Shown here one piece after another: positions 54,762 through 59,885 of a stretch of 64,000 nt of DNA. Both the position numbers and the translations under genes were made by a program. The notes below the pieces were generated by a model. It searched no databases, had not been told where the DNA came from, and saw nothing but the letters and a program-made list of their open reading frames with translations. Positions within the stretch are counted from its first letter, which is position 1. Every line of letters begins with the position of its first letter. The stretch is from Dyadobacter sp. Leaf189 (lineage in GTDB: Bacteria; Bacteroidota; Bacteroidia; Cytophagales; Spirosomataceae), in NCBI RefSeq assembly GCF_001424405.1, contig NZ_LMPS01000001.1:272522-336521 (forward strand). Direction: 5' to 3'.

Positions 54762-55505
54762 ATGAAAGAATCTGTTTTTGTTTGGCTTGCGGTGCTTATA
54801 CCTGTCTTCGGCCTTGCGCAAAACACGCATCTTGCAAGCGCCGGCGCTGCCAGCTCGGGTACGAACACGGCGCAGAAAAAACCTCTTGAATTAAAAGAAA
54901 GACGTATTCTTCCGCTGTTTGGTGAGGTAAGTAAAACTTCCGAGCAGATCGACGAAGAAATTAAATTCCTGAGTGAATGCGACAAATCCTTTTCGAGCCG
55001 CACTGAGGCGAGCAGCTTTTTCGCTGCGCGCGCGTGGGAATATTTGCAGGAGGGTTCACTTGATACTGCCTGCTACCGTTTCAATCTAGCACAGCTTCTG
55101 AATGACAAGAATGTGGAGGCTTACTGGGGCCTGGGAGTAGTGTCTTATCAGCGTGAAAACTGGGTAGATGCAAAGCGGATGCTGAGTAAGGGAGTTAGCT
55201 TGCAGGGCGACAATGTGCCTTTGCTGGTGGATCTTTCTACTGTTGATCTAAAACTTTATGCAATTACCAGCCGGAAAGAAGAGCTGGATGAAGCAGCCGA
55301 GCTTTTGAAACATGCCACTGCGGTGGACTCCACTTACGCACTTGGACAGTATAATTTGTCGCTTTTGCATTATAACCTTAATGAGCTAGACAAGTCTTGG
55401 GAGCATTTACATAAAGGCAGAGTGCTGGATTTATCACAAATGAATTTCGAATTTGTGGAACTGCTGAAAGCCAAAATGCCAGATCCGCAAGGTTTCTTCA
55501 AATAG
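54762..55505 (+). CDS. Secreted TPR-like protein, function unknown
   Basis: The 247-residue protein has a signal peptide (cut near GLAQ), a low-complexity Ala/Ser/Gly segment, then helical repeats of the TPR type: ACYRFNLAQLLNDKNVEAYW, VVSYQRENWVDAKRMLSKG and LGQYNLSLLHYNLNELDKSW. It is probably a periplasmic protein-interaction module. It starts 68 bp after the helicase gene and ends before a terminator; no functional partner is visible. Confidence 0.75.
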   Translation: MKESVFVWLAVLIPVFGLAQNTHLASAGAASSGTNTAQKKPLELKERRILPLFGEVSKTSEQIDEEIKFLSECDKSFSSRTEASSFFAARAWEYLQEGSLDTACYRFNLAQLLNDKNVEAYWGLGVVSYQRENWVDAKRMLSKGVSLQGDNVPLLVDLSTVDLKLYAITSRKEELDEAAELLKHATAVDSTYALGQYNLSLLHYNLNELDKSWEHLHKGRVLDLSQMNFEFVELLKAKMPDPQGFFK

Positions 55506-55524
55506 TTATCAAGATATATGATGC

Positions 55525-55560
55525 AAAAAAGCGCCCCTGAATGTTCAGAGGCGCTTTTTT
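55525..55560. terminator. Bidirectional intrinsic terminator
   Basis: Bases 55525-55541 pair with 55544-55560 with one C-A mismatch and a tight loop; A and T runs lie at the ends. It lies between the TPR gene and the convergent BtuG-like gene. Confidence 0.85.
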
Positions 55561-55580
55561 TGTTGTTATATGAAATGAGC

Positions 55581-56657
55581 TTACTGGAAGAAAAATCCTG
55601 TTGGGGCAACATTTACTTTCACAGAATCAACTACCGAGCCGTCGGCGCGGTAGCGGATCGCGTAACCTGCCTGCGCGTACGATGGTGTTACACCTGCATA
55701 GATTAAACCTTGCGCAGGGTCCACTGCAAGTCCGGTGAACATTCTTCTGATGAGCGGAGTCGCAAGGCTGATCTGCGTATCATTGATCCCAAATTTGTAG
55801 GTTTCTCCGTGTGAAACGAAGTTGGCGTCAAAGTAGGACAATGTGAAAACAATGGATTTCAGATCATTGGTCAATGCAAAATTGCCTGCTATTTTGTTTG
55901 CATCAGTTCCTATCGGCAAAGTTGTCTCCACCGCGTAGGAAGTCGGATCAATTTTCATTGTTTTGATACCGGCACCTACCCAAAGCTTGCCGTTTGCATC
56001 CAAACCGATCGGTGTCGGTGTAGCGTCCAGGGCAATTGTTTTGGTGACTGTTTCTGCATTCGTATCAATAACATACAAAGTTTTGCCTTCGCCATAGGAA
56101 ACTGTTCCCACGAACAGTTTACCTGTTGTAAATACCAGATTTTCCGGTCCGCCGGCAATAGGGATTTTCTTTGTTACTTTTCTTGTAGTAATGTCAACCA
56201 CAGCAATATAACCGGAGCTATAATCGCTCGTATAAGATCCCCAGCAGGATACATAGGCGCGGTTTCCTGCAACCACAACTTCCCTCGGATTCTCAATATC
56301 CGGCGCGCCGATGGTGCCTTGTTTTTGAAAAGTATAAGCATTAACAAATTCAATCTTGTCCATTCCTGCATTGGAATTGTCAACCAGAATCACACCGTAC
56401 TCACCCGTAGCTGCGTAACCTTGTACACCGCCGGTCAGCGCGGAGCCATTTACTTTGGAGAAAATATCGGCTTCGGCAGTGGTATTTTCGCGTTTCAAAA
56501 ATGAAATAGCGCCATTATTCTGACTGAAGTTACCTTCGTTCACCACGAAAACGCCTTTCGCAAAATCCCCCTTCGGCTCGGGATCACTTTGATTACATGA
56601 CGATACTGCTGCTGAGAATGCGATGAAGTAAAGTACTCTTGATAATCGTTGTTTCAT
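55581..56657 (-). CDS. YncE-like beta-propeller lipoprotein, probable BtuG (cobalamin-binding surface protein)
   Basis: The 358-residue lipoprotein (from MKQRLSRVLY) has a lipobox ending SSC (Cys21), followed by the acidic stretch SDPEP, which fits surface-export signals of Bacteroidota lipoproteins. The rest consists of repeated propeller blades, for example NPREVVVAGNRAYVSCWGSY, GPENLVFTTGKLFVGTVSYG and TPIGLDANGKLWVGAGIKTM. It lies 34 bp after btuB behind the cobalamin riboswitch. In Bacteroides, the BtuB partner BtuG is a seven-bladed propeller lipoprotein that captures B12 very tightly; the fold and context match. A start at 56783 would read back into btuB and lacks the lipoprotein signal at its beginning. 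Confidence 0.78.
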   Translation of the reverse strand: MKQRLSRVLYFIAFSAAVSSCNQSDPEPKGDFAKGVFVVNEGNFSQNNGAISFLKRENTTAEADIFSKVNGSALTGGVQGYAATGEYGVILVDNSNAGMDKIEFVNAYTFQKQGTIGAPDIENPREVVVAGNRAYVSCWGSYTSDYSSGYIAVVDITTRKVTKKIPIAGGPENLVFTTGKLFVGTVSYGEGKTLYVIDTNAETVTKTIALDATPTPIGLDANGKLWVGAGIKTMKIDPTSYAVETTLPIGTDANKIAGNFALTNDLKSIVFTLSYFDANFVSHGETYKFGINDTQISLATPLIRRMFTGLAVDPAQGLIYAGVTPSYAQAGYAIRYRADGSVVDSVKVNVAPTGFFFQ

Positions 56658-56691
56658 CTTAATTGGATTTATATATAACTGTATTGCAAAT

Positions 56692-58638
56692 TTAAAACTC
56701 GTCTTGTCGTACCCGCGCCTGTTTTGTTTTTGAATCAAATGCCGCAATGAGGTTGATCGCGAAGCTTCTGCCAGGCAATGCATTGTTTTGTACGCTCAGG
56801 TAAAACGTATTTGTTACATTGTTGATCTGCCCCTGCACCCGCAAATATACTTTCCCAAATGAAACGGAAGTTTCCGCCAGCAGATGCAACAGCGCGTACT
56901 CTTTCAAAAAAGTGGAATTGTCGAAAGTAGTGTACCGTTTGCCCGCAAATTGCAATTGGCCTGTCAGCTTTGTGTTGCGGTACTGTGCAAATGTACTCAG
57001 CCCGGCAGTATAAAGCGGCACGAAACGTAGCTGCTTTCCAATCACATCAACAGAGTATGCGTCGTAAGCTCTTTCCTGAATGCTTTTATTATAAGCATAA
57101 GTAATGTTCGTTCCAAGTTGCGTTACATCTATACTCCCGCGCCAGCCTGCCTGTATTTCCACGCCGCGGGCAAGTACCTGTTGTAAGTTTTCGATGCGAT
57201 AATTTTTTACAGGATTCCAGTAAGTCCAGTCTTTGATCCGGTTGTGATAAGCTGTTACCGAAACATCCAGCTGGCTCTTGGGAGAAATAACGAAGGCCTG
57301 TTCTATGCCGGCTTCCTTGTTCCAGCCATTCTCAGGCCTGATATTCGGGTCACCCAGTACTTTCCAGTAACGTTCATTCAAGGTAGGTACACGGTAGCTT
57401 CTGGCAACCGAGCTTTTTATTTTCAGCTTATATCCGGGCAGTTCAATCAACTGGTATTCAGCGCCCAGTGAGGGGGTAAAAGGCGGGTTGTACCCTGTTA
57501 CCAGCGCCTGGCGGAGATTCACGGACACGACCAGCGGTGCATTGACCTGCCAGCGGGTGAGGAGAAAGAAGTCGCCGCGGTTTTCTGTGATAACCGGCGT
57601 TTCGTAGCCAGGTACTCTGGTCCGGTAATGCGTCCATTCAGCTCCCGCCTTCATGGATATGTTGCTTCCGTTTTGATTCAGGATAAAGTCGAAATCCTTT
57701 TCAATGCGGTTGGAAAATTTATCAGTTACAGCATGGTCGAGCTGGCGATAATTGCCTTTCGCATAATCGATGATATCCCGCACCCAGGCCGCACGTGCTG
57801 TAAAATCCCCGACACTGTATCTAAGCATCGCCCGGTAAGCTTTGGTTAATGTGAGCTCGCGACCAGCTGTATCAGCCGGTGAGGTGGTCAGTTTGTTGCT
57901 GGTAATCCAGGCATGCGCAGAGATTTCCTGATTGTTTTTGCCACTAATAAAAATATCCTGAACCAGACCGCGCTGGAATGCTTCGGAAGGCAGCAATGCA
58001 TATTCCCTCCGTTGTCGATAGGGAAATTGGTTGTTCATCCGATTGTCGTAAAGACTCGTTTTTCCCGAAATCCGCCAGTTGTTCCGTAGCGCGGACCCAT
58101 AGCGGGCAGCAACCTGGGTCTGGTGATTGTGAAAGCTTTCGACCTGCTGTCCCAATAAAACTTTAAACCCATTCTCTCCCGCAGCACTGTTCAGCAAAAT
58201 GCTGCCGCCTACTGCATCGGTTCCAACAATGCTCGCAGCTGAACCATATTGAATGGAAAGTGCATCGAAGCCAGCGACAGGTATGGTCGAAAAATCGGTT
58301 TGGCCCAAAGTGGGAGAGTTGATATTCAGGCCATTCCAGAGTACAGCCGTGTGATTGGCGGAGGTTCCGCGGAAGAAAGCAGTGGTAAGTTGTCCCGGTC
58401 CATATTTGTTAAAAGAAACCGGTGTTTGAATTGCCAGCAGATCACTGATATTCTGAAATTGAAAGGCGAGCAGACTGGCTGAATCAATCCGCTGCACTTT
58501 CAGTCCGCTCATGAACTTTTCGGGTACGAAACCCTTGATATTAACCGGCTGCAAAGAGATCGAGTCCGTTTGGGCGTGGGTTATGGCCGGAAGAAAAGTC
58601 CCTGCCGCAATAACTGCCGTAATCAAAATCCGCTTCAC
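56692..58638 (-). CDS. btuB: TonB-dependent cobalamin receptor BtuB
   Basis: The protein of about 648 residues starts at GTG 58638 (first residues MKRILITAVIAAG), followed by a signal peptide cut near THAQ. A TonB-box-like segment, a plug domain (VQRIDSASLLAFQFQNISDL ... GTSANHTAVLWNGLNINSPT) and a 22-strand beta-barrel end in a Phe residue (VRQDEF). It imports cobalamin across the outer membrane using ExbB/ExbD/TonB energy. The riboswitch directly upstream supports cobalamin as substrate. A frame open to 58893 runs through the riboswitch and is not translated. GTG 58647 is another possible start. Confidence 0.9.
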   Translation of the reverse strand: MKRILITAVIAAGTFLPAITHAQTDSISLQPVNIKGFVPEKFMSGLKVQRIDSASLLAFQFQNISDLLAIQTPVSFNKYGPGQLTTAFFRGTSANHTAVLWNGLNINSPTLGQTDFSTIPVAGFDALSIQYGSAASIVGTDAVGGSILLNSAAGENGFKVLLGQQVESFHNHQTQVAARYGSALRNNWRISGKTSLYDNRMNNQFPYRQRREYALLPSEAFQRGLVQDIFISGKNNQEISAHAWITSNKLTTSPADTAGRELTLTKAYRAMLRYSVGDFTARAAWVRDIIDYAKGNYRQLDHAVTDKFSNRIEKDFDFILNQNGSNISMKAGAEWTHYRTRVPGYETPVITENRGDFFLLTRWQVNAPLVVSVNLRQALVTGYNPPFTPSLGAEYQLIELPGYKLKIKSSVARSYRVPTLNERYWKVLGDPNIRPENGWNKEAGIEQAFVISPKSQLDVSVTAYHNRIKDWTYWNPVKNYRIENLQQVLARGVEIQAGWRGSIDVTQLGTNITYAYNKSIQERAYDAYSVDVIGKQLRFVPLYTAGLSTFAQYRNTKLTGQLQFAGKRYTTFDNSTFLKEYALLHLLAETSVSFGKVYLRVQGQINNVTNTFYLSVQNNALPGRSFAINLIAAFDSKTKQARVRQDEF

Positions 58639-58715
58639 AAAAATCACCTGGGTATTCTCTGGATAGTAACAGGCTCGCTGCTTTTCCTCCGAAAGCGGTG
58701 TAGCACGAATGATCT

Positions 58716-58884
58716 GGCAGGTCTCCTGGCTCGCCTTTTGGCCCGGTGCCTTCCCGTTTTTCAACAGTGGCTTCGAAGATCGGGTCAATGGAACAGACTT
58801 ACAGTTGCGGGGACAGCTTCCGGTTTTAACGGAATTCCCTATTAAGCCACGAAAAGCAACATGGAAATTGCTACGGGCACCAAA
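58716..58884 (-). ncRNA. Cobalamin (B12) riboswitch upstream of btuB
   Basis: On the minus strand, TTGGTGCC (58883-58876) opens the aptamer and pairs with GGCACC (58750-58745) to close P1. Conserved elements follow in order: TTAATAGGGAAT, a CCGTTAAAACCGG stem, GCTGTCCCCGCAACTGTAAG, then the B12-box core AGCCACTG and GGGAAGGC. The 3' end is the typical GGAGACCTGCC. About 78 nt separate it from the btuB GTG, enough for an expression platform. It should reduce btuB-btuG expression when adenosylcobalamin is present. Confidence 0.95.
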
Positions 58885-58890
58885 CGGTCG

Positions 58891-58898
58891 CAAAGGTA
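58891..58898 (-). promoter_or_regulatory. Candidate -7 promoter box for the riboswitch-btuB transcript
   Basis: TACCTTTG on the minus strand fits TAnnTTTG and ends a few bases before the riboswitch 5' edge, where a transcript start is expected. No clear -33 box is seen. Confidence 0.5.
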
Positions 58899-58937: not shown

Positions 58938-58945
58938 TATCTTTG
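58938..58945 (+). promoter_or_regulatory. Candidate -7 promoter box for the EamA transporter gene
   Basis: TATCTTTG fits TAnnTTTG, 16 bp before the GTG start at 58962 and back-to-back with the btuB promoter. Confidence 0.4.
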
Positions 58946-58961
58946 TCCCAAAATCTATAAG

Positions 58962-59885
58962 GTGGCCTCTTCTGCACACATTCCTGGCAACGCATCCCGT
59001 AAAGGCATTTACCTTATGCTTGGAGCGGCATTTTTCTTTTCATTGACTTCTGCATTATCCAAGTGGCTGGGCCGTGATTTCCATATTGTTCAGCTGGTGT
59101 TTTTCCGGAATATAGTTGGTGTGGTGTTCGTGCTCAGCAGTATCCGGCAGCGGCCGCTCGTTCAGCAGGGCGGGAAGCTGGGCTTGCTGATTTTCAGGGG
59201 AGTTGTAGGTACGCTGTCACTATACATGCTTTTTTATGCCATTCAAACGCTCGGACTCGGACGGGCTTCTACCTACCAGTATACTTACCCGATTTTCCTG
59301 GCATTACTTTCCTGGTTATTGATTGGAGAAACCCTGAATGGAGGAGAGTGGGCTGCTATTTTCATTGGCTTCACAGGTATCCTGCTTGTGTTCAGGCCGG
59401 ATCTTTCCATCTCGTTGCGGGACAATGCGCTGGGCTTGGGGAATGCACTTTTAACAGCAATTTCCTATCTGTCAATCCGGCAGCTCGGGCTGGTTTATGA
59501 TACCCGCGCCATCATTTTGTCATTTATGCTCAGTGGGATCGTAATGCCCATTATCTCCATGCTGGTAGGTACTTACTATCCTGTCGAACACCTCGATTTT
59601 CTGATCGGGACATTTAAATGGCCTGATAACATGTGGCAGTGGCTGGGATTTCTGGCACTCGGACTAACTGCTTTGGCAGGTCAGAAAATGCTGACACAAT
59701 CTTTCACATTCGACAAAGCAGGCCGGGTGGCGGCAATTGGTTATTCCAATATTCTCTTTTCAGTCCTGATCGGGTTTTTGATGGGAGAAGCAATTCCTTC
59801 TGTCCCGATGCTGGCTGGTATGCTGCTGATTGTTGCGGGGGGCATTCTTATTTCATTTGCCAAATCCAAAGTCGCAGTGAAATAA
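58962..59885 (+). CDS. EamA-family (DMT) transporter
   Basis: The 307-residue inner-membrane protein has about ten hydrophobic helices in two homologous halves, typical of EamA. Repeated motifs are RKGIYLMLGAAFFFSLTSAL, FFRNIVGVVFVLS, LGLGRASTYQYTYPIFLALL and, in the second half, LLTAISYLSIRQL. It is expected to export small metabolites; no substrate can be read. The start is GTG (58962), just after a promoter-like box. It is divergent from btuB, but nothing ties it to cobalamin. Confidence 0.87.
   Translation: MASSAHIPGNASRKGIYLMLGAAFFFSLTSALSKWLGRDFHIVQLVFFRNIVGVVFVLSSIRQRPLVQQGGKLGLLIFRGVVGTLSLYMLFYAIQTLGLGRASTYQYTYPIFLALLSWLLIGETLNGGEWAAIFIGFTGILLVFRPDLSISLRDNALGLGNALLTAISYLSIRQLGLVYDTRAIILSFMLSGIVMPIISMLVGTYYPVEHLDFLIGTFKWPDNMWQWLGFLALGLTALAGQKMLTQSFTFDKAGRVAAIGYSNILFSVLIGFLMGEAIPSVPMLAGMLLIVAGGILISFAKSKVAVK

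Follow-up and report, generated by a model that had tools for sequence, protein, structure and literature searches.

The riboswitch-btuB-btuG operon of Dyadobacter sp. Leaf189 and its relatives

The closest known systems to the locus considered here, a cobalamin riboswitch followed by btuB and btuG in Dyadobacter sp. Leaf189, are BtuB2G2 and BtuB3G3 of Bacteroides thetaiotaomicron (PDB 8bmx, 8p97, 8p98; Wexler 2018, Abellon-Ruiz 2023). For that species, PMC6143338 reports a need for BtuG and repression by B12. The same paper surveyed BtuG homologues in 313 human gut genomes and suggests that life in the gut may be one reason why BtuG evolved. It is also already published that BtuG is a Bacteroidetes protein and that it occurs in Bacteroidetes cobamide transport loci. 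The stretch analysed here (hereafter the window) comprises 64,000 nucleotides of contig NZ_LMPS01000001.1, and all parts of the operon lie on its minus strand in the order cobalamin aptamer, btuB, btuG and terminator. This is very probably a B12-repressed operon of the BtuBG type, serving corrinoid uptake across the outer membrane with a surface lid. The riboswitch, the gene order, the lipobox sequence, the predicted folds and the conservation of the pair are established in the present analysis.

The operon and its products

The features of the operon are as follows:

58898-58699, minus strand: cobalamin riboswitch aptamer RF00174 (Infernal 93.6 bits, E 5.6e-22, model 1-189/189)
58891..58898, minus strand: promoter-like box TACCTTTG (-7-type), overlapping the 5' end of the aptamer match
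58680..58696, minus strand: candidate regulatory hairpin GCTTT-CGGAGGA-AAAGC (genus conservation, partial L5 complementarity)
58638-56692, minus strand: btuB, TonB-dependent outer-membrane cobalamin transporter, 648 aa, GTG start (Pfam Plug, PDB, AlphaFold)
56657-55581, minus strand: btuG, predicted surface lipoprotein, DUF5074 beta-propeller, 358 aa (Pfam, PDB, AlphaFold)
56595..56657, minus strand: signal peptide and lipobox of BtuG, residues 1-21, Cys21 (sequence)
56565..56594, minus strand: acidic stretch NQSDPEPKGD after Cys21 (sequence, genus conservation)
55505-55580: strong, probably bidirectional terminator between btuG and a convergent TPR gene (-26.7 kcal/mol, z -8.4)

A preliminary description had placed the operon at 55581-58884 and called its aptamer nearly textbook. 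The core of that span stands and extends slightly, to the -7-like box (58898) and the terminator (55505), whilst the aptamer covers the full model length far above the RF00174 gathering cut-off of 31.5 bits and was recovered at the identical position in a genome-wide search. The order of aptamer and btuB also stood. The end of the aptamer model and the start of btuB are 60 nt apart, and the 78 nt given earlier depends on where the two boundaries are drawn. The gap between btuB and the lipoprotein gene is 34 bp, as given.

The identification of the transporter as btuB was borne out by sequence and fold alike. BtuB matches Pfam Plug (1e-13), and its closest solved relatives are BtuB3 (8p97_A/8p98_A, 1.4e-50) and then BtuB2 (8bmx_C, 2.3e-44). 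The AlphaFold model (alignment of 49 rows, pLDDT 89.2) contains a plug and a TonB-transporter barrel nearest to BtuB2 and BtuB3, as in a Bacteroides-type BtuB, with Z scores of 42.1 for BtuB3 (8p98_A), 41.8 for BtuB2, 40.7 for E. coli BtuB (1nqe) and 38.0 for BtuB1. TIGR01779, the proteobacterial BtuB equivalog, scored the protein at 95.1 bits, under its cut-off of 599.7. At the EL8 position Tyr480 aligns with Tyr538 of BtuB3; judged by eye, this position is aromatic in 45 of the 49 rows (Ser in L126, L127, L178 and L087), and another TonB receptor of the same genome seems also to be aromatic there. The EL8 aromatic was considered as proof of the ejection mechanism and dropped as non-specific.

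The lipoprotein, described previously as a BtuG-like propeller, matches Pfam DUF5074 (70.7 bits, cut-off 27.2, 1.5e-19), and its best PDB match is BtuG3 (8p97_B, 3.3e-19), the partner chain in the complex that best matches BtuB. Its model (alignment of 60 rows, pLDDT 95.1) is a seven-bladed BtuG-type propeller, superposing on the 11 listed BtuG entries at Z 34.9-37.2 (1.8-2.2 Å over ~300 residues); beyond these, the next fold reaches Z 30.6, a lactonase 29.0 and BtuK1 28.2. A generic YVTN/DUF5074 propeller might stand behind btuB by chance and bind no B12: 1,046 Foldseek matches at E <= 0.001 show how common the fold is, and the DUF5074 family has no assigned function. However, the gap between the BtuG entries and the next fold sets them apart as a separate top group, and the linkage to a cobalamin riboswitch recurs across the sampled phylum, making such a coincidence highly improbable. 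At its N-terminus the protein reads MKQRLSRVLYFIAFSAAVSSC and then NQSDPEPKGD, that is, a lipobox followed by an acidic stretch. The lipobox is present in 36/36 same-genus orthologues, at least 29 of which have the motif SCNQSDP. Acidic stretches after the lipobox cysteine act as surface-export signals, and NQSDPEPKGD is likely to be one judging from its sequence, in agreement with what had been proposed.

Promoter and terminator could be placed at either end. TAnnTTTG, which we take to be the Bacteroidota -7 consensus, occurs in 32 of the 35 leaders compared (that of the window and those of 34 same-genus loci), whereas shuffled sequences would give 1.1. The terminator hairpin carries U/A runs on both strands and probably works in both directions. 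A TATCTTTG box at window 58938-58962 lies just ahead of a divergent EamA transporter gene, and the promoter of that gene is likely to reach into the leader of the btuB operon.

Distribution of the btuB-btuG pair

Within the genus, btuB followed by btuG was found in all 36 other genomes searched, with RF00174 upstream in 34 of them. For the order to which the window belongs, 98 genomes drawn evenly were searched with BtuG, BtuB and RF00174. Full-length BtuG was found in 78 (among the matches listed) and strong BtuB in 73, and BtuG was present in every one of these 73 genomes. Of the 77 strong BtuB genes, 61 have a BtuG on the same strand no more than 2.5 kb away, in every case downstream, and 60 of the 61 close pairs have a riboswitch upstream; the other 16/77 have no BtuG within 2.5 kb. 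Six btuG genes that do not adjoin btuB are preceded by a cobalamin riboswitch at a distance of 51-243 nt. These counts draw on a list of the best 150 propeller matches and leave aside its lower-scoring entries, a partial BtuG (G509:C40) and 27 weaker BtuB rows, one of which (G454) adjoins a BtuG.

A wider set of 115 loci was selected by hits (36 from the genus, 19 from the order search and 60 hand-picked from phylum matches, the last mostly one to three per family and up to six, in f42, with six from the window's order). The pair lies within 1.5 kb in 96 of these, with BtuB first in 93 and a riboswitch ahead in 91; because the phylum loci were hand-picked, 96/115 is no frequency for the phylum. 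The DUF5074 profile matched in 158 of 395 genomes of the phylum sample, a figure that is no measure of absence since the profile scores many BtuG proteins weakly. Sampled genomes from other classes of the phylum also show the riboswitch-btuB-btuG order. In the window's order btuB and btuG usually form a pair, and such pairs occur in further lineages, among them the separate NCBI phylum Balneolota. The suggestion that the pair is wider than the gut lineage therefore held when the neighbours of btuB were surveyed.

Five loci (L090, L092, L142, L164, L160) have a btuG directly after its own cobalamin riboswitch and no strong btuB adjoining, a split arrangement, whilst in others (L199-L201, L203, L205-L212, L088, L089) ~1 kb separates btuB from btuG, leaving space for an extra gene. 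The correlation between BtuB and BtuG trees (0.96 for all rows; 0.67 for 61 rows when the window stands for its whole genus) was not used as evidence of docking, as shared descent alone suffices to produce it.

The separate btuG genes bear on whether the lipoprotein stays on BtuB at all. As a free corrinoid scavenger (like BtuH) it would pass its ligand on without forming a lid, which would suit the 16/77 BtuB genes of the order that are unpaired within 2.5 kb as well as the tailed relatives described below, which no longer have the lipid anchor and whose linker is shortened. Yet btuB and btuG stand together in the same order in most sampled genomes, and BtuG copurifies with BtuB in B. thetaiotaomicron (PMC10404256); we consider a free scavenger unlikely.

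In a quick tree of 107 rows, BtuG2 of B. thetaiotaomicron falls inside a 52-row set that also holds the window BtuG (support 96). The tree leaves out the duplicates L182, L184 and L188, an open-ended frame (L153), a masked run (L102) and 33 of the 36 genus members; unrooted and without a species tree, it shows breadth and nesting and no dated origin. Beside BtuG2 in this tree (support 92) is a btuB-btuG pair from a metagenome bin labelled Chlorobiota (L191:3-2994). New here are the extent of the btuB-btuG pair and the nesting of BtuG2 in a wider tree, and we infer that gut competition was not the origin of BtuG.

Proposed mechanism, pocket and leader

By analogy with the B. thetaiotaomicron system we propose that BtuG binds B12, forms a complex with BtuB and goes through a lid cycle, and that B12 exerts its control in the same direction. 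At low cellular B12 the leader would be read through and BtuB and BtuG made. BtuG would be lipidated at Cys21 and then moved to the cell surface, where it would sit over the mouth of BtuB and catch corrinoids in the central cavity of its propeller. As the lid closes, an extracellular loop of BtuB would displace the ligand, and TonB energy would drive it into the periplasm. Plentiful B12 would bind the aptamer, the L5 loop would probably dock on the loop of the downstream hairpin, and expression would stop.

Several observations weigh against this mechanism. In the order survey, among the matches listed, BtuG occurs without strong BtuB in 5 genomes and the cobalamin riboswitch without BtuG in 11. 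The BtuB model scores nearly equally against the lidless E. coli BtuB (40.7) and BtuB3 (42.1), so that fold alone cannot separate a lidded from a lidless BtuB. BtuG itself is identical to BtuG2 at 75 of 322 aligned residues, and in a sequence alignment at this low identity Tyr316 of BtuG2 corresponds to Thr308, Trp272 to Ile256 and Tyr239 falls in a gap. The beta5A clamp loop has 5 residues in the window BtuG against 17 in BtuG2, which is why Tyr239 is without a counterpart. The mature net charge is -5 as opposed to -19 in BtuG2. In the leader, L5 (UCCCCG) could pair with the hairpin loop CGGAGG only with one mismatch and one G-U, and the isolated leader folded no better than shuffles and did not favour the hairpin.

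Four of the 11 genomes with a riboswitch and no BtuG (G040, G054, G242, G504) have a weaker-scoring TonB receptor directly after the riboswitch (in G040 at C1:7986562-7988776). These receptors are possibly a lidless type for B12 or another corrinoid.

Some features of the BtuG2 pocket are retained, namely the N-terminal NEGNF loop and an aromatic residue at two positions (Trp194 to Tyr188, Tyr335 to Tyr327). In simulations of BtuG2 the beta5A loop closes on the vitamin (PMC10404256). This loop is of 7 residues or fewer in 13 of the 60 rows, including all eight genus rows and both rows from other genera of the same family. Because this loop and several pocket aromatics are absent, the window lid probably binds through a contact set somewhat different from that of BtuG2, as far as the alignment indicates, and the published affinity of BtuG2 cannot be transferred to it. 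Pocket conservation was dropped as proof of B12 binding, the published contacts being only partly kept. An importer of the same BtuBG type might then be tuned to another or incomplete corrinoid and not to cobalamin itself. A pocket unlike that of BtuG2 fits this idea, as does a genome equipped for late cobalamin synthesis (cobN, cobB, cobQ), where salvage of precursors would be useful; however, BtuG2 binds several corrinoids (PMC10404256), leaving the distinction a matter of degree, and we hold such a specialisation to be rather doubtful.

The same genome has four cobalamin riboswitches, one in the btuB operon, a divergent pair and one before metE. The divergent pair is flanked on one side by cobN/chelatase/cobB/cobQ and on the other by a transporter gene and a further TonB receptor (L120:10200-14439). 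The frame of this receptor opens with nearly 200 residues of repeated CHAERSRS-like sequence; these are probably non-coding repeats read as protein, with the true start lying downstream of them. B12-binding domains were found in frames of 1274 and 723 aa, which by their sizes may encode MetH and methylmalonyl-CoA mutase. These frames and the riboswitch ahead of metE count in favour of the B12 operon proposed here.

The downstream hairpin, with its loop CGGAGG, starts 2 nt past the aptamer model and is kept in the same-genus alignment rows listed. An L5-L13 kissing loop is a known feature of cobalamin riboswitches, and the hairpin loop and L5 are here a candidate for such a contact. We scanned 104 leaders for it, 8 of them without a recognised L5 and some with a script-chosen L5 that looks wrong. 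Outside the genus the downstream loop fitted L5 at p <= 0.05 (60 shuffles each) in 17 of 61 leaders, six of the 17 having a perfect score and L5 letters that differ; inside the genus just 1/35 did so at p <= 0.05.

Tailed BtuG proteins and comparison with known systems

Some BtuG proteins from outside Bacteroidia that stand behind a riboswitch and btuB are ~90 residues longer and lack a lipobox. Their C-terminal extension is a type IX secretion sorting domain (Pfam, NCBIfam). Amongst 143 BtuG homologues, a count that includes three duplicate loci, lipobox and tail never occur together: 125 have the lipobox alone, 17 the tail alone, and one (an open-ended frame) neither; the 17 tailed proteins are 14 distinct ones, as three loci are present in two collections. 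The lipobox was called by a purpose-made sequence rule and not by a signal-peptide program. A stricter rule without Trp at -2 (82 lipobox, 44 neither, 17 tail) was replaced because 33 of the 36 genus proteins failed it despite a plain WSC or similar motif. The tail model was built from nine named Balneolia tails, and their matches, with those of three duplicates, are by construction. As independent checks, Pfam PF18962 scored 6 of 7 tailed proteins above its cut-off (L133 fell below) and none of 3 untailed, and NCBIfam TIGR04183 scored 10/10 tailed proteins above its own. Complete BtuG from named Balneolia records carry the tail in 9/9 cases, the search query having come from tailed lineages, and within the same family (f42) lipobox BtuG was found in 3 of the 6 genomes fetched. 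One tailed BtuG is from an isolate, Gracilimonas mengyeensis DSM 21985 (L183), of the NCBI phylum Balneolota. Tailed BtuG adjoining btuB were located as follows:

L126:6011-7351
L127:5992-7338
L130:250-1749
L133:5628-6992
L136:1442-2767
L137:5430-6779
L147:5412-6773
L183:7943-9289
L185, L186, L189, L190, L194 (one each)

A cobalamin riboswitch lies upstream of the pair in all seven of L126, L127, L130, L133, L136, L137 and L147. The remaining tailed protein is encoded in L139:3345-6874, a stretch that follows a cobalamin riboswitch and has in turn a lipid-anchored BtuG, the tailed protein as a second and divergent propeller, and a third propeller-like frame; no btuB-type receptor was scored in this stretch. 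The BtuB partners in L126 (4075-6003) and L127 (4062-5987) have Ser at the EL8 position, whilst other tailed pairs keep Trp.

In BtuB2G2 the N-terminal linker is held by loops of BtuB and has been proposed as a hinge (PMC10404256). Between the lipidated cysteine and the NEGNF-type motif, lipid-anchored BtuG have a median of 22 residues (111 of the 125 measured), and tailed BtuG have 10 residues between the likely end of the signal peptide and that motif (15 measured, 12 distinct). The median net charge of the propeller is -31.5 in tailed (n=14) and -3 in lipid-anchored proteins (n=93), with overlapping ranges. Mapped on the tree, anchor type needs five changes, and well-supported branches make two or more of these unavoidable. 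A gene of the type IX translocon, sprA, is present in 16/16 genomes checked, including that of the window, and its presence therefore cannot separate tailed from untailed. No description of type IX-tailed BtuG was found in the literature searched; B. thetaiotaomicron BtuG2 has been employed as a reagent (PMC11287211).

We lean slightly towards the view that the lid of BtuB reaches the surface by two interchangeable routes, and that a tailed lid, delivered by type IX secretion, works without the lipid leash and hinge. This view locates tailed BtuG directly after riboswitch and btuB in Balneolia and, within the phylum, in some lineages related to them. Such a lid would be held by the BtuB interface or by a C-terminal sugar-lipid, or else be released as a secreted B12 catcher. 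Tailed BtuG are a natural experiment on the pedal-bin model: if it is true that the lid works without a lipid anchor and with a shorter linker, the hinge would not be essential, and lidded TonB transporters may outnumber what searches for lipoproteins suggest.

Taken on its own, the window operon is an ordinary, well-defined BtuBG member, and its value is that it leads to the widespread pair and to a lid with an alternative export signal. With BtuB2G2 and BtuB3G3 it shares a riboswitch-controlled btuB beside btuG, a TonB transporter with a propeller lipoprotein, and the NEGNF loop, at ~23-26% identity in structural alignments. It differs from the B. thetaiotaomicron systems in that its BtuG has no beta5A clamp loop and is less acidic, and its genome has late cobalamin synthesis genes and no BtuH among the three neighbouring genes examined. 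E. coli BtuB has the same TonB transporter fold, and a search control also found a cobalamin riboswitch in E. coli, where it presumably precedes btuB. Unlike the window, E. coli has no BtuG homologue according to PMC6143338. The B12-binding protein BtuK1 (PDB 9s6c) has a propeller fold too, its Z of 28.2 lying clearly under the BtuG entries. SusD, the lipoprotein of SusCD, differs in fold from the BtuG propeller. SusCD resembles BtuBG in combining a TonB transporter with a lipoprotein lid, and departs from it in that SusD binds glycans weakly and SusC is larger (PMC10404256).

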